A stretch of DNA of 64,000 nt from Candidatus Vecturithrix granuli (GTDB taxonomy: Bacteria > Moduliflexota > Moduliflexia > Moduliflexales > Moduliflexaceae): positions 345,466-409,465 of the forward strand of contig DF820468.1 in assembly GCA_000739535.1 (NCBI GenBank), in the 5' to 3' direction. The position numbers and the translations under genes are program-made. Positions 2 to 53,613 of this stretch are shown in pieces (the stretch's first letter is position 1; every line of letters starts with the position of its first letter). The notes under the pieces were generated by a model. It was not told the DNA's origin. It saw only the letters and a list, made by a program, of their open reading frames with translations, and ran no database searches.

Positions 2-961
2 CATGTGAGTTTTTCACTGAGTATCACAGCGAATCCCTATGAACAACTGTCAATATATGTGCAGCCGAGTTATAGCGAGGGTGGGGCCGAATTTGAAGAG
101 GAAGACGTCAGCCTGGATTATGCCTTTGCCGAATGGTATTTTTCAGATACGTTTATTCTACGGATTGGGAAGGTCAAAGCCCCCTTTATGCTCTATACCG
201 AGATCTATGACGTCGGCACGGTTCGACCGTTTTTTTTCCTTCCTCAGGGGGTTTATCAACAATTGTCGGCCGAAGCGTATAAAGGGGCAGGACTGACCGG
301 CTCGCTGTTTTCTAAGGAAGGCTGGGAACTACAGTATGATCTGTATGGCGGAAAACTCAGTGTGCAGTCGAATCCTTTTGTGAACCTCCAGACCTTTGAA
401 TTTGTTCCGGTCGCTCCGGTTATCAATGATCTCATAGGTGGGCGTCTGTCTTTGCAAACGCCAGTTACCGGGTTTAACGCAGCAATTTCTTCGTTTGCCG
501 GAAATTTTGAGATGGACAATCCTATACTCTCGCTGGATGAACATTATGTGATAGTGGGACCCTCGTTAGAATATGTCTCGGAAAATTGGAAAATTTGTAG
601 TGAATACTTGACCCAGATCGACAGTTCCAAAATCTCTCTTGATTCGATCTACCTCGAAGCCTCGTATCAGGTCACGGAACACTGGCAAATTGCTGCCCGC
701 TATGAAAATACCAATGTCGAGATTGAGGTTCCTCCGGAACTGTACTACCTCCCTTCATCAATCTATGAACATCAGGAAACTGTGCTGGGTTTAAATTATT
801 GGCTCAACCCGAACCTGGTCTTCAAGCTTTCTTATCATATTGTGGATGGGAACCGTTTTGCTTTTCCAGAAAACGGGGAGAAATACCTCCTGCACACCCT
901 GGATGGCAATTTTGAAGAGACCACCCATCTTCTCCTCATTGGCACACAGTTTAGTTTTTAA
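2..961 (+). CDS. Outer-membrane porin-like beta-barrel protein, 5' truncated by window edge
   Basis: This is the C-terminal 319 codons of a gene that begins before the window. The frame is open from base 2, and residue 1 of the visible part aligns with about residue 75 of the complete paralogues at 1279 and 3155, so the GTG at 5 is not a real start. The sequence is rich in alternating polar/aromatic strands, has the shared segments LRIGKVKAPF and YDVGT(V/I)RPFF, and ends in Phe (IGTQFSF), the usual C-terminal signature recognised by the BAM complex. It resembles phosphate-selective or DcaP-like porins; the solute is unknown. Unlike its two paralogues it is not followed by a small binding-protein gene. 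It is the most diverged of the three copies. Family assignment is by fold pattern only. Confidence 0.8.
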   Translation, partial: HVSFSLSITANPYEQLSIYVQPSYSEGGAEFEEEDVSLDYAFAEWYFSDTFILRIGKVKAPFMLYTEIYDVGTVRPFFFLPQGVYQQLSAEAYKGAGLTGSLFSKEGWELQYDLYGGKLSVQSNPFVNLQTFEFVPVAPVINDLIGGRLSLQTPVTGFNAAISSFAGNFEMDNPILSLDEHYVIVGPSLEYVSENWKICSEYLTQIDSSKISLDSIYLEASYQVTEHWQIAARYENTNVEIEVPPELYYLPSSIYEHQETVLGLNYWLNPNLVFKLSYHIVDGNRFAFPENGEKYLLHTLDGNFEETTHLLLIGTQFSF

Positions 962-1122
962 ATCGGAGGATGCCATTACTAAGAATGGCGAACCTGGAGG
1001 TCAATAAAAATTTTCACTTGACGACCTCCTTTCTCAACCATATACAAATTTTAAGAAAATTTCAAAAGTCCTTAACCATCTATGGAACAAAAACTGTCTA
1101 TGGAATAAATGTAATGACACAG

Positions 1123-1211
1123 AAGGTTATGGACACGCTCTCCGGAGTGCGCAAGCTCTGCTTGCGCGGCCAGAGCAGAGCTTTGGCACTCCGAAAAATG
1201 TCCATAACCTT
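1123..1211. repeat. Twin-hairpin (BIME-like) repeat, family B copy 1
   Basis: A 13-bp perfect outer inverted repeat (AAGGTTATGGACA / TGTCCATAACCTT) encloses GGAGTGC...GCACTCC, and inside that sit two small hairpins with TCT or AGA loops (GCGCAAGC-TCT-GCTTGCGC). Related copies are at 17499-17547 (inside the megasynthase gene) and 50531-50650. It fills most of the gap between the first two porin genes; no gene is seen in 962-1245. Confidence 0.75.
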
Positions 1212-1245
1212 GCATGTCAATACAAATAAAGAGTAGCATTGTCAG

Positions 1246-1271
1246 CAACAGCCTTTGATAGAAAAGGAGGG
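1246..1271 (+). promoter_or_regulatory. Conserved leader with ribosome binding site, copy 1
   Basis: CAACA(G/A)CCTTTGATAGAAAAGGAGGG lies just upstream of the porin start at 1279 and recurs with a single difference at 3120-3145 before the porin at 3155, although the rest of the upstream DNA differs. The AAAGGAGGG part is a strong Shine-Dalgarno sequence and fixes the start codons. The role of the conserved 5' half is not known. Confidence 0.6.
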
Positions 1272-1278
1272 CACAAGG

Positions 1279-2412
1279 ATGAAAAATAGAGGATGTTTTT
1301 GGATGTTCTGGGTGTTCTGCTTCTGGGCGATATGGGGCGAGGAGGCTCAGGCGCAGTTTATGAACACCATTTCAATACACGGATTCGGCGGATGGGCTTA
1401 TGGAAAGACCGATAATGAGAATCAGTACCTTGTCGGCAATGAGGACGGCAGCTATGATACCGTCAATTTTTCGCTGAATATCACGGCCACGCCGTATGAA
1501 CGACTGTCACTCTATGTGCAGCCGAGTTATAACGAAGGCGGGTTTGAAGAGGAAGACGTCGGCCTGGATTATGCTTTTGCGGAATGGTATTTTTCTGATA
1601 AGCTTCTTCTCCGAGCTGGCAAAGTCAAAGCTCCCTTTCTGCTCTTTACCGAGGTGTATGACGTCGGGACGATTCGGCCGTTTTTTGGCCTTCCGCAGGG
1701 GATCTATCGCCAATTTTCGGCTGAAGCCTATAAAGGGGTAGGGCTGACCGGGTCGCTGTTCCCGAAAGAAGGGTGGGAGTTGCAGTATGATCTGTATGGC
1801 GGGAAACTCGAAGCACAGCCGAATGTCTTTGTGAATACGCAGACCTTTGAATTTTTCTCAGCCATTCCGGTTATCAATGATCTGGTTGGCGGGCGTCTGT
1901 CTGTACAAACGCCGCTTACCGGGTTAAGCACGGCAATTTCTGCACTTGGCGGCAATCTTGATTTCGGCAATCTGTACCAATCGTTGAATGACCGTTACGT
2001 GCTTGTGGGCCCCTCGTTAGAATATGCCTCAGAGCATTGGAAAATTTGTAGTGAATATTTAACCGAAACCAGCAGTGACAAAGTCTCTATTGATTCGATC
2101 TATGTTGACGCCGCATATCAGCTCACGGAACACTGGCAGGTGGCTGCCCGCTATGAATATGTTGATTTTGAGATTGCCGTTTCTTCCGAATTGCAGCAAA
2201 TGCCCTCATCATTATTTAAGCATCAGGAAACTGCGCTGGGGCTGAACTATTGGTTTAACCCGAATCTGGTCTTCAAGCTTTCCTATCACATCGTGGAGGG
2301 CAACCGGTTTGCCTTCCCGGACGACATTCAAACCTATTTACAGCGTATCCAGACCGGTGGTTTTGACGAAACCACCCATCTTGTCCTGATCGGTACGCAA
2401 TTTAGTTTTTAA
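1279..2412 (+). CDS. Outer-membrane porin-like beta-barrel protein, paralogue 2
   Basis: A 377-residue exported protein. The start was placed at ATG 1279, eight codons inside the longest frame, because it has a strong AGGAGG upstream and opens a Sec signal peptide (MKNRGCFWMFWVFCF, cleavage likely after AQAQ). The mature protein begins FMNTISIHGFGGWAYGKTD and continues as amphipathic strands to a terminal Phe, as expected for an outer-membrane barrel. It is close to the paralogue at 3155 and less close to the truncated copy at 2-961. It is followed 17 bp later by a small PstS-like protein gene, and this pair is duplicated at 3155-4758. A porin paired with a substrate-binding-like protein suggests anion or nutrient uptake, but the substrate cannot be read from the sequence. 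Confidence 0.85.
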   Translation: MKNRGCFWMFWVFCFWAIWGEEAQAQFMNTISIHGFGGWAYGKTDNENQYLVGNEDGSYDTVNFSLNITATPYERLSLYVQPSYNEGGFEEEDVGLDYAFAEWYFSDKLLLRAGKVKAPFLLFTEVYDVGTIRPFFGLPQGIYRQFSAEAYKGVGLTGSLFPKEGWELQYDLYGGKLEAQPNVFVNTQTFEFFSAIPVINDLVGGRLSVQTPLTGLSTAISALGGNLDFGNLYQSLNDRYVLVGPSLEYASEHWKICSEYLTETSSDKVSIDSIYVDAAYQLTEHWQVAARYEYVDFEIAVSSELQQMPSSLFKHQETALGLNYWFNPNLVFKLSYHIVEGNRFAFPDDIQTYLQRIQTGGFDETTHLVLIGTQFSF

Positions 2413-2599
2413 CCAGGAGGAACGCGAGTATGAAAAACCGTATCGTGTGCATGACCTTCTTGCTTCTCCTGCTCACAAATGGTCTGGTGAGCATTGCTGA
2501 AGAACCAGCGCCATTCAGCATCATTGTCCATGCCTCAAATCCTGTGACGCAGCTCTCAAAAGAGGATGTTTCAAACATGTTTTTAAAAAAGGTCAAACA
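2221..2599 (+). repeat. 379-bp identical direct repeat, copy 1 (gene-conversion tract)
   Basis: Bases 2221-2599 are identical, by reading through both copies, to 4097-4475. The tract covers the last 64 codons of the porin gene, the intergenic RBS and the first 57 codons of the small binding-protein gene. The sequence on either side is clearly diverged between the two copies, so identity is confined to this block. Confidence 0.85.
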
Positions 2600-2882
2600 C
2601 TGGAAAGAAAGCGGAGAAGCCGTGCTTCCGGTTGATTTGGTTGAAGATTCCCCGATTCGTGCGCAGTTTTCAGAAAGCATCCACGGGCGAAAGATTACCG
2701 CAATTAAGGCCTATTGGCAAAAACAGATCTTTTCGGGGCGTGGCGTGCCGCCAGAAGAAAAAAAATCGGAGAATGAAGTGCTGAAATACGTCTCTGAAAA
2801 TCCGGGAGCCATCGGCTATATTGCCGCCTCAACCCCAATTGACGACTACAATGTCAAGGTGCTAACAATCAAAGCGCAGTAG
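2430..2882 (+). CDS. Small PstS-like substrate-binding protein, paralogue 1
   Basis: A 150-residue exported protein with signal peptide MKNRIVCMTFLLLLLTNGLV followed by AEEPAPFSIIVHASNPVTQLSKEDV. The body (LSKEDVSNMFLKKVKHWKESGEAVLPVDL, and later GVPPEEKKSENEVLKYVSENPGAIGYI, given in part) resembles the shortened PBP-like proteins annotated as phosphate ABC transporter substrate-binding proteins; the motif PGAIGYI is typical of them. At about 125 mature residues it is one lobe of a normal binding protein, so it probably does not work as a classical two-lobed PstS. It lies 17 bp after the porin gene with its own AGGAGG and no ABC permease or ATPase nearby. The partner may therefore be the porin itself; that is inference. 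Confidence 0.8.
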   Translation: MKNRIVCMTFLLLLLTNGLVSIAEEPAPFSIIVHASNPVTQLSKEDVSNMFLKKVKHWKESGEAVLPVDLVEDSPIRAQFSESIHGRKITAIKAYWQKQIFSGRGVPPEEKKSENEVLKYVSENPGAIGYIAASTPIDDYNVKVLTIKAQ

Positions 2883-2931
2883 AGATGGGATGTTCTTTCA
2901 CTCAATACCGATCCTTGTATCGACTTCCACA

Positions 2932-2957
2932 GTATATTGTGGAAGTCACAATATGCT
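2932..2957. repeat. Perfect 10-bp hairpin in porin-unit intergenic region
   Basis: GACTTCCACA and TGTGGAAGTC flank a 6-base loop. No T-run follows on either strand, so it is not a standard terminator. Apart from this hairpin and the leader at 3120 I see nothing in the 2883-3154 gap. Confidence 0.55.
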
Positions 2958-3119
2958 GTGGAGGCTGCACCATGCTTCAAGAATCTTGCCTGCGAGGGAG
3001 CTATCCTCTAACCTCTTATCAAACGACGGGTTATCCCAGACAACACGCTAAACATCCTTGATGGCACGGAACGTGCAACACTATGTCTGTGATGGTTGCG
3101 ACAAGTTAGACACCTTTAT

Positions 3120-3145
3120 CAACAACCTTTGATAGAAAAGGAGGG
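3120..3145 (+). promoter_or_regulatory. Conserved leader with ribosome binding site, copy 2
   Basis: This is the second copy of the CAACA(G/A)CCTTTGATAGAAAAGGAGGG block found at 1246, placed 9 bases before the porin start at 3155. Its conservation against diverged surroundings suggests that the block moved with the gene or is under selection. Confidence 0.6.
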
Positions 3146-3154
3146 TGTACAAAG

Positions 3155-4288
3155 ATGAAAACGAGAACGTATTTTGGGATGCTCTGGGCACTCTGCGTTT
3201 TGGCTATTTGGGGTGAGGAGGCTCAGGCGCAGTTTATGAACACCATTTCAATCCATGGGTTCGGCGGATGGGCGTATGGAAAGACCGATAATGAAAACCA
3301 GTACCTTGTCGGCAATGAGGATGGCAGCTATGATACCGTCAATTTTTCGCTGAATATTACGGCCACGCCCTATGAACGGTTATCAATATATGTGCAGCCG
3401 GATTATAATGAGGGCGGGTTTGAAGAGGAAGGCGTCGGCCTGGATTATGCCTTTGCGGAATGGTATTTTTCAGATAAGCTTCTTCTGCGGGCCGGCAAGG
3501 TCAAAGCCCCCTTTCTGCTCTTTACCGAGGTGTATGACGTCGGGACGATTCGGCCGTTTTTTGCCCTACCTCAGGCGATCTATCAGCAAATGGCGGCTGA
3601 GGCGTATAAAGGGGTGGGACTGACCGGGTCACTGTTCCCGAAAGAAGGGTGGGAGTTGCAGTATGATCTATATGGCGGGAAACTCAGCTTACAGCCGAAT
3701 CCTGTGATCAATACGCAGACCTTTGAATTTATCTCTGTCACGCCGGAGGCTAACGATCTGGTCGGGGGGCGACTGTCCCTGCAAACGCCGCTGACCGGGT
3801 TCAACATCGCCATGTCTGCCTTTACCGCCAATTTTGAGTTGAGCAATCTCGGCCCATCTCTGAATGACCGTTATGTGCTGATGGGGCCGTCATTAGAATA
3901 CTGGTCGGATCGCTGGAGGATTCGGAGTGAGTACGTCACCCAGGCCAGCAGTTCCAAAGTTTCCTTTGATTCGGTCTATGTTGAAGCTGCGTATCAGGTC
4001 ACGGAACACTGGCAAATGGCTGCCCGCTATGAATATGCGAATTTTGAGACGACTGCTCCTCCTGAAACGCAAGCCCTGCCCTCATCAGTCTATGAGCATC
4101 AGGAAACTGCGCTGGGGCTGAACTATTGGTTTAACCCGAATCTGGTCTTCAAGCTTTCCTATCACATCGTGGAGGGCAACCGGTTTGCCTTCCCGGACGA
4201 CATTCAAACCTATTTACAGCGTATCCAGACCGGTGGTTTTGACGAAACCACCCATCTTGTCCTGATCGGTACGCAATTTAGTTTTTAA
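3155..4288 (+). CDS. Outer-membrane porin-like beta-barrel protein, paralogue 3
   Basis: A 377-residue exported beta-barrel protein, very close to the paralogue at 1279. The signal peptide is MKTRTYFGMLWALCVLAIW with cleavage after EEAQA; the mature start (QFMNTISIHGFGGWAYGKTD) matches the other copy and the C-terminus is again Phe. The start has an AAAGGAGGG ribosome site. Variation between the copies is concentrated in the middle (about residues 170-300), where surface loops would be expected, while the last 64 codons are identical at the DNA level. This suggests loop diversification plus homogenisation of the 3' end. It is followed by a second small PstS-like gene 17 bp downstream. Confidence 0.85.
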   Translation: MKTRTYFGMLWALCVLAIWGEEAQAQFMNTISIHGFGGWAYGKTDNENQYLVGNEDGSYDTVNFSLNITATPYERLSIYVQPDYNEGGFEEEGVGLDYAFAEWYFSDKLLLRAGKVKAPFLLFTEVYDVGTIRPFFALPQAIYQQMAAEAYKGVGLTGSLFPKEGWELQYDLYGGKLSLQPNPVINTQTFEFISVTPEANDLVGGRLSLQTPLTGFNIAMSAFTANFELSNLGPSLNDRYVLMGPSLEYWSDRWRIRSEYVTQASSSKVSFDSVYVEAAYQVTEHWQMAARYEYANFETTAPPETQALPSSVYEHQETALGLNYWFNPNLVFKLSYHIVEGNRFAFPDDIQTYLQRIQTGGFDETTHLVLIGTQFSF

Positions 4289-13946: not shown

Positions 13947-14990
13947 TTACCATTCCCAGCCCAACATTAAACAATTTAATCCGCTGCCAATGCCTAAAAA
14001 GCCAACGCGATCGCCGGGCTGTAAAAAATCGCGATCTTCTGCTAAACCAGCCGTGAGTGGCAGGGAAACCGTGCCGATATTCCCTAAATATTGATGGGTG
14101 GAGAAATCTTTATCATCCGCAAGATTGAGCGCATGTAAAATCGTGTCGCGGTGTGCGCTGCCGACCTGATGGCAGATCACCTTATCAACCTGCTCTGGCC
14201 GCCAACTCAATTCTTGTAAAAATGCCTGCCAGGTTCTGCGTCCTAACTCCACACCGTTCTGCAAGACCGCGACCGAATCGGTCGTCATAATCTGCCACCA
14301 GGGAGTTGACGGATCAGTATCCACGCCCCAGCGGCATAAGTCATGAAATTGGGGGGCTGTTTGCATCACTCCGCCGATCAAACGTCGGCGCGGATTAGGG
14401 TTAAACGAACCATCGCTGAGAATTATCGCAACTGCGCCGGAGCCACCGGTCAAAGTCGCTAGCGAGAGTTTAAAGGATTCCATATCGCGCATCTGCAACA
14501 TGCGTTCAATCGTGGTTTTCATGATTTCGCGAGCGGTTTCACAGGAAACCACCATTCCGGCGCGAATCTGGCCTAGCTCAATCCGGTTGGCGATCTCAAG
14601 GATGCCATTTAACACGCCCAAACAGGCGTTGCTGATGTCATACACGGCTGCTGCCGGATTCACGCCCACATAGTGCGCCACTCGGCAGGCGGTCGCTGGT
14701 TCAAATCCCTCACGGCATACACCGGCGTAAATCAAGACTTCAAGATCATCAGGTTGTACCGCCGATTTGAGCAACGCTTTCCGCGCAGCCGCAATCGCGC
14801 CGTCCGACAGCCGGTATCCGGGTTCCCACCAGCGGCGTTCAATAATGCCGGTCAGGGCTTCCAATTGCCCCAGGGGAATGTGCAAAGTCTTATAAATCGG
14901 GGTCAATTGTTCTTCCAATTCTGAAGACGTGACGACAATTGGGGCCAGTTCATAACCAATCGCCTCTAAAAATACGCGTGAATATTTCAT
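13947..14990 (-). CDS. 3-oxoacyl-ACP synthase III (FabH/OleA-like thiolase fold)
   Basis: A 347-residue condensing enzyme of the KAS III type. Active-site residues visible are Cys123 in SNACLGVLNG, His in ICHQVGSAHRD and Asn in YLGNIGTVSLP; GVCREGFEPATA and VGFLGIGSGLNC are typical family segments. The start was placed at ATG 14990, since the longer frame reads through the hairpin at 15011-15046. KAS III enzymes start chains with acyl-CoA (FabH) or join two acyl chains head to head (OleA). It follows the KS-CLF-AT-DH megasynthase by 71 bp, so it most likely supplies or joins acyl chains for that system. Which reaction it catalyses cannot be decided from sequence alone. Confidence 0.88.
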   Translation of the reverse strand: MKYSRVFLEAIGYELAPIVVTSSELEEQLTPIYKTLHIPLGQLEALTGIIERRWWEPGYRLSDGAIAAARKALLKSAVQPDDLEVLIYAGVCREGFEPATACRVAHYVGVNPAAAVYDISNACLGVLNGILEIANRIELGQIRAGMVVSCETAREIMKTTIERMLQMRDMESFKLSLATLTGGSGAVAIILSDGSFNPNPRRRLIGGVMQTAPQFHDLCRWGVDTDPSTPWWQIMTTDSVAVLQNGVELGRRTWQAFLQELSWRPEQVDKVICHQVGSAHRDTILHALNLADDKDFSTHQYLGNIGTVSLPLTAGLAEDRDFLQPGDRVGFLGIGSGLNCLMLGWEW

Positions 14991-15010
14991 AACATCGTGT
15001 TTTCGTTTGC

Positions 15011-15046
15011 GAAAAAAACCAGGTTTCTTCAAGAAACCTGGTTTTT
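15011..15046 (-). terminator. Terminator-like hairpin after the megasynthase gene (family D)
   Basis: Read on the minus strand, AAACCAGGTTTCTTGAAGAAACCTGG is followed by a run of seven T. This has the form of an intrinsic terminator or attenuator between the megasynthase and the KAS III gene. It belongs to the same hairpin family as 12449 and 28286. Partial read-through would lower KAS III expression relative to the megasynthase. Confidence 0.65.
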
Positions 15047-15061
15047 CAGAGCATCTCTTCG

Positions 15062-18000
15062 TCAAGACATTTTCAATGTAAAACGTTCCATCTGGTAAAT
15101 AATACGGCCATCCACAATCAGAAAACCCTGAGCTTCAAGGAAACGCTGTACGTCGTCAACAGCAGTGATTTCAGCCTGAATGGTGACATGCCGGTCGGTT
15201 GGGATCACCTGACCGCGATAGGTCCATTCGTGCGGATGGTGTAAGGCCATGGTTTCAACGCGATTCTGCGGCTGCCAGCCCCAACGTTTCACCGCCGCTA
15301 TTTTGAGCAGTTGCAAAAATGCTTCCAATCCCAGGGAGCCAGGCCAGACCGGATCTTGATAAAAATGCGCCTGAAAAAACCATTCCTGCGGATTGACGAT
15401 TTTGCTGCCGCGAATAAAGCCCAATCCCTGCGGGCCGCCGTCAGGCACGTACAGGTCGATCTGATCCACCATGCGTAACTGCGTATCAGGGTAGGGAGGT
15501 TCTTGCGGATACGCGAAGGATTCGCCGCGCGCCGCTTCTTCAGCGGTGGGTTCATACGGTTTCGCATCGCGCAGACCGATTTGGTGCGCTAACGCCTGTT
15601 TCGTGAAAAAGCCGAAATAGGTTGCGCCCTGATACACAATAGCTCCGGCGCTGTTGGTCAGCGTATAATCATAATGTTGAATAATCATCCCGCCGGAGGT
15701 GGAGACGCTGGTGAGCGTGACCGTTGTGGTCAGAGTGCCGATATCCGGAGTCACCGGCAGAAATTGCGTGGCTTTCCCCCCCAGATTACGGAACGACAAA
15801 TCCACATCGCTGGTTAAGGCCGACCCGATGTAGGCCGCCAGCCAGCCACAGGGCTGCAGCACGATTTCCAGCAGGACGGCAAAGGGCATGTTGATATGGC
15901 GGTTTGCCGCAAAATACCAGGCCTCTGGCGGGACATCGTACTGCGCTTCCGCGCTTTTGGGGGCCGTCATGATCCAGGGGTCACCGTGTACTTCTGTGAT
16001 GCGATCTAAAAACTGATAAGGCGGACCCGGCAGACGCGCGATTACCCGCTCTACATCGAACACCTGGTAGCGGTCGCCAAAGGCTTCCGAAGGTTTGCCG
16101 TTTGAGAATGCCAGAATGCTGTTGTGGTCGTAAATCGCGGGTTTACGGTGATAGTGCGGGGCTATCCACCCCTGGCCTCTCCCAGAATGAGAATTTTTCC
16201 CCCCCTCGTTCCTTTCAGGAGGGGAATGAAAACTCCAGATCGTTTCCAATTTTGCCTGTGTCATCCCGGACAGGCGCAGTGACATGTCGATCATGCGTAC
16301 AATCGGTCGGCCATCGGCGTACATCACGGCGTCACTGATCACATACGGTTCAGGCCGGAATCCGAGTTCTTTGATCGAAATTTCATAGACCACTTTTTGC
16401 GTGGAAGCCGTCACCTGTCCGCGGCATTTCAATTGTCCGGCCACGCCGGGCACGGGTTGCCAGGCGATTTCATTCTGCTCGCCGACCCAGCCCATACGCA
16501 TCAACAACACGCGCAGCGTGTGCAGGCAGCATTCATACATCAACGTGCCCGGCATGACCTGGTCGTCCACAAAATGACAGGTCAAAAACCAATCGTTCGG
16601 ATGAATATCCGCTTCTCCTCGAATTTGCCCCAGACCATAACGTCCGCCGGTCGGATCAAGATGTAAAATCCGATCCACCAGTTTCATGCGTCCGCCCGGC
16701 AAACGGCAGGGATTTTCCAGGGGCAGTCCGGCAAAGCACTGTCCGAAACAGGCCGCCAGGTCGCCGTGCCGCAAGGCGTCCAACTGCGCATCGGAATAGA
16801 ATTCGACCGGCGCGATCTCAGTCAATGGCTGCCAATCTTCCGGCATTTTGCCGGGTATCGGACACAGATCCATGTTCGTAAACACCAACCCGCGTCCTTC
16901 ATCGAGTTCCTGCGAGGTAAAAAATCCGGCGCAGCCTTTTTGCATGGTCAAAAACAATTGGCCGTCTGCCGTACACTCAAAACGGAAGCGAAATAAATGG
17001 GTATTGCCCTGCTGGAAGAATTCGTCAATATGAATATCATAGTGCAGCAAAGTTCCCGGCCCCGGTAAATCGCCGTGAAACGTGACCTCGGCATCTAACA
17101 AACGATAGACCGCGAGACCTTTGGTGACAAAATCAATCCCCAGATACCCGGAGAGAAACAGGTCGGCCTGTCCTGATTCAACGGCGATGCAGGTCGGAAT
17201 CCGGCCGCAGTCCAGATACCAGTCCTCAGGTAAAATATCGTGTTCTGTGATCACCCGTCCATGCGTCATGAAACAGGGCTCGCCTTCCACCGCAATAATG
17301 CGATCCACCAGCATCAGCGGTTCATCAGGCAGTCGTACTCGCGTGGGGTGCGTGTCAACTTCAGCAAATTTTTCACCCAATACCTTTGCAATTGATCCAA
17401 CCGCAAATTCCAAACATTGTTCACGCGTCATGAACACACCGGGTTTAGAGGCCGCACTCCCCTCCTGGGAGGCAGGGCTGTTAAGTTCTCGATGATCAGG
17501 AGTGCCAAAGCTCTGCTTTGGCAGCGAAAACAGAGCTTTCGCACTCCGATATTTTGCATAATCTGCATAACCCACCCCTGACCCCTCCCAGGAGGGGAGT
17601 ATTTCCCTCTCAATCAGCGACATCTGGAACGCGACCTGATTGGCGTAGCTTTCAGTCAGACCCTGCGCTAGTTTCAGGTAGGCCTTATGCGCCTGAACAC
17701 TGCGGGCGTGAGCTTCGCCAACCTGCTGCACCAGTTCTGTAATCTGCTGTTCACCGAACTGATCCATCAAGTTGGGTGTTTCTGCTTGTGTTTTTTGCAC
17801 CGCAGAGGACGCAGAGAACGCAGGGGAAGCTTGTTGAGTCTGCCTGTTTTCTTGCCGTGTCACGTTTCGCTGTTCAACAGGAATGGCGGAAATTGGGGGC
17901 GGTTCAGGTGGTTTCTTTGCGCTCTCTGCGTTCTCTGCGCGAGAAGAGATTTCTGGCAAGGGAATTTGGAACGGCTGCCCACCGGTCGGAATGTGCAAGG

Positions 18001-21000
18001 ACTTCTGTTTTTCGGCCTGTTGTTCAGTTTGATGGGCAATTACAAGAGTTTCTTGTCCATATAATGCTGAGAAATCAACAGGCACTCGTTCAACAAACAG
18101 TTTGCCTAACAGACGCAGAATGGTGTTCGAATCTTCACCATTGGCCGCGCAGGCTGATGCAGCGATATGCGGCTGATTTTCCAGGATTTTTGCGATCATA
18201 TTAGTGCAGCTGTTGCCTGGTCCTATTTCGATAAACACCCGTACCCCATCCTGATAGGCCTGTCGAATGACCGCCGGAAAATCAATTGTATCCGACGCCT
18301 GCGCCAGGATCGCATCCGCCGCACTTGCGGCTGTCACCTGATAGGCTTTGCTCCAGGCCCCGCTGTAAAATCGGATGCCGGCAGGCGCGGAAGTGTTTTT
18401 GAAATAATGTAAGTCCCGATACGGGCCTTCGACCTGTTTGATAATTTCACAATGCGCAGCCGAAACCCCGGCTAAGGGATACGTCGGACAGCCAAGCTGC
18501 ACAATCACGTTCTGCACAGCTTGACGATCTCCGCCAAGCACGCAACTGCCGGGCGTGTTGATAATTAACAGATACACTCTGTTATGTTCTTTTAACACCC
18601 ATTGTACCTCTTCTGCCGGACACTGCACCGCGGTAATCACCCAGTCTGCGGGCATATCGCCGCTCAAATTCCAGGTCCGACTGACTGCCAGGAATTTTCC
18701 AGCTAAATCTCTGGTATAGAGCGGCGAAGTCATGACCCGTTGCAGCATCTCATCCCGGTCAGTCCAGGCTTTCAATGCAAAAAAAGCTGAGGACTCCCCT
18801 AGCGAATAGCCGATAACCGCTTGAGGCCGGAGACCAAAATGACGAAGCAGATCCGTCATCATGGTGCTATATGCGACCTGTCCGAGCAGAATTTCACGGG
18901 GATATTGATTAATGCGCTCAGCCGAAGGCGAATTCCACAGTAATTCCGGCACAAATTGACTGCGCAGGTACTGATTATGGCGATCCTGCTCGCGTAAAAT
19001 TTCCGGCCATTGGACGGAAATTGTGCGTCCCATAAACGGGTAATGATTGCCGGACCCCGGAAATATAAACGCAAGTTCTCCAGTTTGCCCGATGGGATTG
19101 GCCGTGTAAAAACTGCGATTGCCAGGCAACGTAAGCGGCTGATCGTTGCGAATGGCATGACGTATCTGCTCAAGCTGCTGATCTAATTCCGCTTTTTCCC
19201 GCGCCAGCAGCGCAGCGCCGAATTTTTTTTTGCCCTGAACAGGTTGTTGCTGCCAGAAACTTCGCGCCAGAGTTTCGATCTGTTCGCTCCTGGTCTGATT
19301 AACATATTTGTGTAGTTTCTCCAATCGCTCAAGCAGTTCAACCTGATTGTTCCCTTCAACGGCAAACAAAGCGTCCGGTCTGGCTCCCAGAGGTTGCAGG
19401 CGTTCCTGCGCAATTACTTTATCTATGGCCACATTTTCCCCCTGATAGGATTCCAGGATCACCGTTACACAATTGCCGTCCATACTCAGGCAGGCTACTC
19501 CGGCGCGACGCGGTCCTTCGACGCGATTGCACAGCCAGTATTGAGGTGCGTTCGGAAAATAATGTTGATTTTCCACTGTATTGTTCAGACTTGCAATTGG
19601 CTTTTCAGGCTGTAGCAAGGTTGGAATAATTTCCTGGTAGAGACACAGACAGGCTTTGACAAAGGAAACTACGCCGGATGCAGCTCCGGTATGCCCGATG
19701 GCAGCTTTCACGCTTCCCAACGCTATTCTCCCCTCCTGAGAGGGGCCATGGGTGGGTTTTCCTTTCGGACAGAGGGCTGACGAGGAGGACAAATCGGACG
19801 AGTGGGGAAAACACTGCGTTAATGCTTCTGCTTCTATCTGGTCTTCCTGGGGAATAGCGCTGCCATGAGTTTCGAAGTACTGCACTGAGGCAGGCTCAAT
19901 CTGCACTTGCTGGCAGGCGCGTTCGAAGGCATCTTGATAGGCTTGCGAATCAGCAGAAAATGGCGTCTTGCCGCCGGAGGCTTTGCCGATCCCTTTCAGA
20001 ACGGCATAGATTCGATTGCCGTCACGCACAGCATCATCTAATCGTTTCAACACCACCGCGACCGCGCCTTCGCCTGGCAGCGTGCCATCGGCCTGCGCAT
20101 CAAAGGGATGAACGCAGCCTGTTTTAGAAAATGGCGTATGGGCATGAGTGGCTAATAAGGAACGAATATCGCCATTCAAATCTATGGCGCCGACAAGAGC
20201 ATGGTCGAGTTCTTTGCGCTGTAAGGCCTGCACCGCGACATCTAATGCCTGCAAACCCGAACTTTCTTCGGCCGAGATCGTGATCCCGGCTCCGCCGACC
20301 TTAAATTCTCTGGCAATCCGGCTGGCGACGATGCCTCCTAACGCGCCGACCGTGCGATTGGCAGTTAAAGGTGGATGAAAAGCGTCTCGCAGAGATTGGA
20401 TCCAAGCCTGTAACTTTTTTTCGCTTACCTTCAAGCTCAGAGTCTTCGCCCATGCTCTGGCCTTGTTCAGAATTTGCCAGCGATAAGAAAAATTGGTGCT
20501 GTTAAAATCGAGTCCAATGCCGATAAACACGCCGGTACGCAAAGAATGTGCTTCATCCAATTCGATATGGGCGTCTTTCAATGCACCATCAGCAACCTGT
20601 AACATCAGCAATTGTTGGGGCAGCGATTCCTGCATTTCTTTGGGCGGAATGCGGAACTGTCCGAAGGGAATATCCACGCCATCCACAAAATAGCCTTGCA
20701 GGTTAGGCAGATCAATCCCCCAGGAATCTGTTTTTGACGCTGGTGTAACATCATCCTGACCGCCAAACACTCGTTCCTGAAAAGACCGTAACGACTGCCA
20801 GGGACCGATCTGCGCACTCAAACCGACAACCGCGATCACTTCTTCTTCAGCAGGAGAATTAAGAGTAATTGAAGTCTCTGGGGGTGATTGAGACAATGCA
20901 GCATCCCATTCTTCTAACAATACATGGGCATTGATGCCGCCAAATCCAAACGCGCTGACTGCCGCCCGACGCGGAATACACTCATCGCGCCGCAGCCAGG

Positions 21001-27401: not shown

Positions 27402-27595
27402 CCGTCCCCCTGACAAGGGTAGGTATTGGGTGGAACAGCCGCCGGATTCCCCTCCGGGGAGGGGTGAGGGGTGGGTTACTGAAGCTGATGACACGCTCAC
27501 ATCGGAGCCCACTCCTGCCCCTCCCCGGAGGGGAATCCACTGCTTCGCAACAAACATACCTACCCTTCTCGGCCTCTCCTTTGGGAGAGGCAGGA
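27402..27595. repeat. Composite inverted repeat, family C
   Basis: An outer pair (GGGTAGGTAT / ATACCTACCC) and an inner pair (GGATTCCCCTCCGGGGAGGGG / CCCCTCCCCGGAGGGGAATCC) make a nested palindrome of nearly 200 bp between hypD and the acyltransferase gene. It carries the CCCACCCCT/AGGAGGGG-type signature also found inside the megasynthase gene. No gene is present in 27378-27640; a frame that reads through it is an accident of the repeat. Confidence 0.7.
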
Positions 27596-50530: not shown

Positions 50531-50650
50531 TGTAAATAATTCTGTGCGGGAGTGCAAAAGTTCTACTTTTGCGTGTCAATTTTTCGGCAAACACTCGCTT
50601 GCGAAAGTAGAACTTTCGCACTCCAGCCAGGCGGCACAGAATTATTTACA
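50531..50650. repeat. MITE-like twin-hairpin element, family B copy 3
   Basis: A perfect 17-bp terminal inverted repeat (TGTAAATAATTCTGTGC / GCACAGAATTATTTACA) encloses GGAGTGCAAAAGTTCTACTTTTGC and GCGAAAGTAGAACTTTCGC-ACTCC. The inner hairpins keep the TCT and AGA loops of the other copies, with paired C-to-T and G-to-A changes. It lies 14 bp after the PEP-CTERM gene and directly before a broken LRR gene. Confidence 0.8.
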
Positions 50651-52773: not shown

Positions 52774-53613
52774 CTATCTCCCTTCCGGTTCAATCCCTAA
52801 TGCCCGTAACTGAGCGGCTAATCGTTCGGATCGCTGGCGTTCCTGTTCAGCGCGTTGAGCCTCCTGTTCAGCGCGTTGAGCCTCCTGTTCAGCGCGTTGA
52901 GCCTCCTGTTTAGCGCGTTGAGTTTCCTGCTCGGCGCGTCGGGCTTCCTGTTCAGCCCAGACGATAGCTTCCTCTAAAGAGGGTACCGCTTTACCGGTGT
53001 GGGGATCAATGATCCGTAAAATCTCATCTTCTGAACGCAAGAGTACCTCAAGTTCCTGGCTCCACAGACAGCCTTGCTGATCAGGCTCTAAGGGGACGTA
53101 TTCATGGTGCTCTAACCGAAATCCCATCATAGCTTTGCCCACATACTCGCGTAACGGATCAAAGATAAAATATTCCTGCACTCCCAATGCGGCATAAAGA
53201 CTGCTTTTCGTCACCAGATCTTCCGCCATCGTTGCTTTTGAGGTGATTTCAAACACCACGCACGGGACTGCATTTTCCTCCCAGGTTTTAAAGATCCGCC
53301 GCTCCTGGTTAGCCACGCCTTTGATGACCATTACATCCGGCGCTTTATTGGCATAACGGTTGCCCTCTTCATAATATAGAAACATGTCTGCTGCCACATA
53401 GATGTCGTCTCGCAATCTGAAAAATTGGCGTAAAGCCCCATATAAGTGCAACGTCGCCCTGACATGAAATCCGGTTTCTCCCATAGGTTTTCCGTCTGAC
53501 TCAGGATACTCTACTTTGGCCTCTTCTACCACGAACGCCTCATCTTTCTGCTTCGCGTAAAAAACCATGGCATCCCTGTCGCTCACTTGCTCTTGAAGTC
53601 CTGTTTCCACCAT
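52774..53613 (-). CDS. Uma2 family (DUF820) putative nuclease with repeat-expanded coiled tail
   Basis: A 279-residue protein. Residues about 30-215 are a Uma2/DUF820 domain of the PD-(D/E)xK nuclease fold, with KAPDVMVIKG and CVVFEITSKAT carrying the acidic and Lys positions, and the family segment VQEYFIFDP. Such genes are abundant in cyanobacteria and filamentous bacteria; their role is not established. The tail (about 220-265) is AEQEARRAEQETQRAKQEAQ and further copies of (R/K)AEQEAQ, encoded by tandem 21-bp repeats at 52838-52957, and is predicted to form a charged coiled coil or single alpha-helix. No Shine-Dalgarno sequence is evident before ATG 53613. Confidence 0.8.
   Translation of the reverse strand: MVETGLQEQVSDRDAMVFYAKQKDEAFVVEEAKVEYPESDGKPMGETGFHVRATLHLYGALRQFFRLRDDIYVAADMFLYYEEGNRYANKAPDVMVIKGVANQERRIFKTWEENAVPCVVFEITSKATMAEDLVTKSSLYAALGVQEYFIFDPLREYVGKAMMGFRLEHHEYVPLEPDQQGCLWSQELEVLLRSEDEILRIIDPHTGKAVPSLEEAIVWAEQEARRAEQETQRAKQEAQRAEQEAQRAEQEAQRAEQERQRSERLAAQLRALGIEPEGR
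52838..52957 (-). repeat. Tandem 21-bp coding repeats in the Uma2-like gene
   Basis: Units GCGTTGAGCCTCCTGTTCAGC are repeated head to tail about five times, three of them identical or nearly so. They encode the heptad-like (R/K)AEQEAQ. Copy number is likely to vary between strains by slippage without shifting the frame. Confidence 0.85.

Follow-up and report, generated by a model that had tools for sequence, protein, structure and literature searches.

Nested palindromic repeats apparently read in frame within an interdomain linker of a PfaC-like synthase gene from Candidatus Vecturithrix granuli

Rickettsia palindromic elements (RPEs) are dispersed repeats of ~100–150 bp that lie in frame in unrelated protein genes and are translated (review PMC10969869). 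Intragenic GTAG/CGTC REPs are small palindromes, usually extragenic and in some cases found in ORFs, for which neutrality in flexible linkers and loops has been proposed (PMC3733652). Enterobacterial RU/ERIC elements are, from the abstract and outline of the study in question, MITE-like and intragenic, with open frames fused to genes and new peptides proposed as the outcome (PMC2759123). The locus described here belongs to the window, i.e., the whole stretch of 64,000 nt that was analysed, and resembles RPEs in being palindromic, dispersed and inserted in frame in protein genes (translation being read here from the frame alone), yet it differs in coming from another phylum, in the nesting of its families, in that one of these is a MITE with 9-bp duplications and in its use of more than one reading frame. 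With the GTAG/CGTC REPs it shares small, mostly extragenic palindromes of which some fall within ORFs; neither a GTAG nor a CGTC end tag was present at the ends of the family C and B copies read, and while those REPs are hosted mainly by replication and repair genes, among the host genes found here are a fatty-acid/polyketide synthase and genes for signalling. RU/ERIC elements, too, are MITE-like repeats whose open frames lie in genes, though they occur in bacteria unrelated to the window's host, and the abstract and outline of that work do not report that one enzyme family is hit repeatedly at the same linkers (PMC2759123). Judged by titles and abstract openings, none of the literature retrieved on such elements in polyketide-synthase linkers addressed the subject. 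The kind of element is already known (RPEs, intragenic REPs, RU elements); what seems new against the literature we looked at is its lineage, its nesting and its repeated occurrence within a single enzyme family.

The host gene (Table 1) encodes, in this order, KS, a chain-length-factor-like KS2, AT and at least three FabA-type dehydratase stretches. It is the occurrence of KS, KS2, AT and FabA-type dehydratase in a single protein that identifies a PfaC-like synthase, and AF2 models of the dehydratase stretches match FabA (Foldseek); the best NCBIfam model is PfaA, at a score under that model's cut-off, and we therefore claim no exact subfamily name. The frame is open over 2418 codons without interruption, and the KS and AT active-site motifs are intact by reading. 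The AT ends at about residue 1420 and the first dehydratase (DH1) begins at about residue 1630, which places the composite repeat block where the earlier note had seen it, inside an open frame between the AT linker and the first dehydratase. A KAS III gene (NCBIfam PRK09258; window 13947–15065) follows the synthase immediately downstream and shares 4 bases with it. The window also contains three similar genes at 5–4288, with 300-nt blocks 81–88% identical and small ORFs in between, and six 21-bp direct repeat units within an ORF at 52803–52970.

Table 1. Positions in the window of the synthase gene and of the repeat features discussed.
Feature	Position	Strand	Basis and remarks
PfaC-like polyunsaturated-fatty-acid/polyketide synthase, 2418 aa	15062..22318	-	Pfam/NCBIfam, homologue alignment, AF2 + Foldseek
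Composite palindromic repeat, 146 bp	17456..17601	read on minus strand	Putative in-frame peptide ILPSWEGSGVGYADYAKYRSAKALFSLPKQSFGTPDHRELNSPASQEGS, residues 1573-1621; RNA fold
Left outer arm: family C core TCCCCTCCTGGGAG	17458..17471	.	Sequence comparison
Family D arm GCAGGGCTGTTAAGTTCT, exact; end of ~114-bp MITE	17472..17489	+	D has 9-bp target duplications elsewhere
Family B twin hairpin	17499..17547	.	Profile E=1.2e-15 in 2.45 Mb sampled
Right outer arm: full family C arm	17569..17598	+	Profile E=3.3e-8
Second inverted pair in AT-DH linker, CGCAGAG-type arms, in frame	17801..17939	-	Few copies in sampled genome
DH2-DH3 linker expansion with C-like arm SFHSPPERNEGGKNSHSG	16181..16234	-	Homologue alignment
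Family C arm in KS2 loop, in frame, KPTHGPSQEGR	19729..19758	-	Profile; homologue alignment; pLDDT <50 at 846-860
Family B hairpin within another MITE (TIR TGTAATGACACAGAAGGTTATGGACA), intergenic	1110..1224	.	B hairpin itself at 1144-1192
Family C inverted pair, intergenic	27444..27538	.	Sequence + profile
Family B copy, intergenic	50549..50624	.	Sequence + profile

Two family C arms around a family B twin hairpin had been the earlier description of this block, and both are present; the layout nevertheless holds three nested families rather than two, running from a family C core through a family D arm, the family B twin hairpin and a degenerate right inner part to a full family C arm, such that the left arm is a C core fused to an arm of the third family (D). 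The in-frame product of the 146 bp would be 49 residues long and repeat-encoded almost throughout. Relatives of the block elsewhere in the genome (composite or D-B-D copies) show 79–92% identity. At the synthase composite no target-site duplication is visible (flanks CCGC / ATTT) and the right D arm is degenerate, so that for this copy we can only infer the order of nesting. Three many-copy families, mostly intergenic, are shown by these comparisons to be nested in the block, where they would be read in frame without a stop; as far as its letters tell, the block represents a mobile palindromic element, nested and non-autonomous, that probably landed in the gene and now forms coding sequence. 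Beyond it, a further inverted pair and two additional C-type insertions are present in the synthase gene. Copies of the same families, reported earlier at 1123, 27402 and 50531, were recovered close to each of these positions as family B, a family C pair and family B, respectively (Table 1).

Family D comprises 38 inverted pairs, mostly spanning 114–127 bp, and is a MITE by being short and many-copied with terminal inverted repeats. Of these 38 sites, 18 are flanked by a 9-bp target duplication (≥8/9 identity of the flanks), a feature seen at 0 of 400 random sites; in some cases a D copy interrupts a family C core, and the 9-bp duplication is then exact. The empty sites are hairpins with a stem of ≥6 in 13/38 cases vs. 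4.6% of random intergenic sites, by a test with loops that was devised after inspecting the sites; a first palindrome test of D targets, without loops, gave nothing. Family D elsewhere in the genome is thereby shown, on the evidence of its copies, as a small putative mobile element of ~114 bp with inverted repeats and 9-bp duplications, often in hairpins. Because D inserts into hairpins, family C included, nested C-D-B composites can arise in general. As an observation on individual sites, GC-rich hairpins are a frequent place of insertion for family D, and family C cores are among them (e.g., C17:153648–153773, among L066–L185). Some insertion sequences target REPs. Family D is like these and like MITEs in its short length, inverted ends, target duplications and insertion in hairpins, but its target preference is partial, at the 13 sites just given. 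Family B, for its part, is central in at least three short inverted-repeat elements, i.e., D, the TGTATTGACATGCAAGG type and the AGAAGCTGTTTTAAAAGT type (window 1110–1224; C17:199434–199542; L023–L030). No transposase-sized element with family D ends was recognised in the 2.45 Mb sampled, in which some stretches were masked.

The assembly amounts to 8.38 Mb in 21 contigs, with an estimated contamination of 10.75%, and the repeat census covered 2.45 Mb (29% of the genome), with genes called from ORFs and a dicodon score. Family B has 87 sites in this sample, only 4 of them within confident genes vs. 70 expected (p~1e-53), and family C has 21, with 6 within genes vs. 16.9 expected. This genome has 56 exact C cores, whereas three relatives of the same phylum have none. 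An unbiased search returned 20 internal intergenic-type repeat segments in 14 of 1692 genes; most other repeat segments are found near the ends of genes, a region in which the called starts are uncertain. When eight other genes (the synthase excluded) were scanned with Pfam, 12 of 13 in-frame repeat segments proved to lie outside domains, the one exception being in a histidine-kinase ATPase domain. The repeat-bearing linkers of other genes include an E2 acyltransferase linker, a PHP/UvrD junction, a receiver-Hpt linker, a helicase-NOV_C linker and TIR-NACHT-FGE linkers.

Several individual genes can be recorded alongside these counts. A PHP-like/UvrD fusion (L118, C17:256408–259743) has a family C pair where its two parts join, and in TIR-NACHT-FGE and NACHT-FGE proteins (C18:372539–375811 and C20:142496–145519) other dispersed repeats would be translated between domains (VPFDSAQGTG, SLSGVEG). 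In a 1549-codon ORF suggestive of a DNA methylase (L194, C18:833674 region), several B copies lie in frame, in more than one frame. The reading-frame bias that the earlier note had suggested looking for was not strong in family B, which is open in 4.65 of 6 frames, the values for shuffles and for random intergenic stretches of equal length being 4.17 and 3.17, respectively; in-gene copies use more than one frame, and the strong claim that frame bias points to an encoded peptide was rejected.

Homologues were gathered with an alignment query (a single-protein query had found no relatives), and the resulting alignment contains 69 homologous genes, i.e., the window gene and 68 homologues. Only the window gene has the repeat peptide: it is absent from all 68 homologues aligned, among which its presence in distant lineages had been named beforehand as the evidence that would count against repeat-derived linker peptide. 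Together with the mostly intergenic location of the repeats elsewhere, this absence supports the earlier suggestion that intergenic-type repeats entered the linker in frame and may make new linker peptide. The half-linker of the synthase is 99 residues long vs. a median of 75 in homologues, of which 7 have a longer one; its KS2 loop has 58 residues vs. a median of 39 and its DH2-DH3 linker 73 vs. 55, with homologues 18–19 residues shorter at both of the latter. A KSB3 orthologue from the same family (G001) is cleanly without the DH2-DH3 expansion. The linker that this orthologue has at the main site is unrelated in sequence and only ~8 residues shorter, for which reason no clean empty site exists at the exact main locus among the aligned homologues. 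Comparison with orthologues, as the earlier note had proposed, thus bears out a gene-specific peptide and expansions of the KS2 loop and DH2-DH3 linker, and does not yield a clean empty site for the main block. Length evidence cleaner than that of the main site comes from the KS2 loop, the DH2-DH3 linker and a helicase that carries a D-B-D composite in this same frame. In the helicase, the stretch measures 91 residues vs. 36 and 26 in two homologues (i.e., the helicase is 55–65 residues longer across it), and the D ends show a target duplication matching at 8/9 positions.

Structure predictions agree with a location outside folded domains. In AF2 models built from alignments of the window protein and homologous loci, pLDDT falls below 50 at residues 1578–1621, 846–860 and 2042–2058, which overlap three repeat-bearing sites, and exceeds 90 in the neighbouring dehydratase and ketosynthase folds. 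As low pLDDT is expected for any unaligned insertion, disorder is supported rather than proven, and the models support the view that the repeat-encoded peptides lie in predicted disordered linker or loop.

Palindromes also recur in other PfaC-like genes. Of the 24 palindromes seen across the 69 homologous genes, 15 are located in the AT-DH or DH2-DH3 linker, which together make up 9% of the residues (OR 17, p=9e-11, an optimistic value because the genes counted are related); codon-shuffled genes have almost no palindromes. Those near the start of L240 and L261 were left out, as they precede the first domain of ORFs delimited from stop to stop. The palindromes are not all independent, sister genes sharing some, and the genes with linker palindromes occupy at least five separate tree positions. 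In L260/L220, L234, L288 and L246 the elements are multi-copy, matching many places in their respective genomes, and hence are dispersed repeats too. Between lineages, the palindromes at the same two linkers, likewise in frame, differ and are unrelated to each other. That PfaC-like interdomain linkers are a recurrent landing and domestication site, at which unrelated palindromes supply functional linker sequence in several phyla, strikes us as rather doubtful; if true, 'selfish' hairpins would contribute to the variation of linkers in megasynthases.

Frame-preserving insertion into tolerant linkers followed by near-neutral retention is, with high probability, the best explanation of these patterns. 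Mobile palindromes would insert throughout the genome, and insertions that break a frame or strike a folded domain would be lost; those kept would have a net length that is a multiple of three, an open frame and a position in a disordered linker or surface loop, where they would persist because little harm is done. A multidomain synthase, with its long tolerant linkers, may accumulate several insertions, and any role of the peptide beyond length and flexibility is assumed to be close to neutral. Insertions tolerated in frame would in this way let repeats supply raw material for linker peptide. It is unlikely, in our judgement, that the repeats were kept for a benefit that the synthase draws from the peptide or from the length of the linker (e.g., in AT-dehydratase spacing or flexibility), as adaptive domestication rather than tolerated noise. 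Such usefulness would fit the repeated, independent strikes on the same two linkers in several lineages and the several insertions in one gene; yet linker length varies widely without repeats (half-linker 17–114 residues), the linker peptides differ completely, and the repeats in the eight other proteins are also mostly outside domains, as tolerance alone predicts.

The transcript of the block folds very stably (−93.8 vs. −56.2 kcal/mol for dinucleotide shuffles, z −8.8), as might be expected if the element worked as DNA or RNA (attenuator, mRNA hairpin or protein-binding site) and translation were a by-product. This is very improbable given that the block is mid-gene, that unrelated repeat families behave alike inside genes and that a regulatory hairpin or terminator was rejected as a candidate, with no excess over shuffles (9 terminator-like matches over the gene vs. 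9.1) and no Rfam match. An assembly or binning artefact, in which a repeat was misjoined into the gene, or a pseudogene, is scarcely credible: the number of contigs and the estimated contamination leave room for one, but the synthase copy differs from every other copy (best 79–92%), which makes misassembly unlikely, the codons are open throughout with active-site motifs retained, and the same pattern is found in other genes and in other genomes.

The best-known examples of mobile palindromes captured in frame come from Rickettsia and a small number of REP-rich genomes. With the present case such capture would extend to a distant candidate phylum (KSB3), in several genes and mostly outside annotated domains, with recurrence at two linkers of one family. 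Independent recurrence at the same two linkers makes the question of tolerance vs. benefit of repeat-built linkers testable, and the sites point to natural insertion positions that a megasynthase apparently tolerates—useful for domain engineering.
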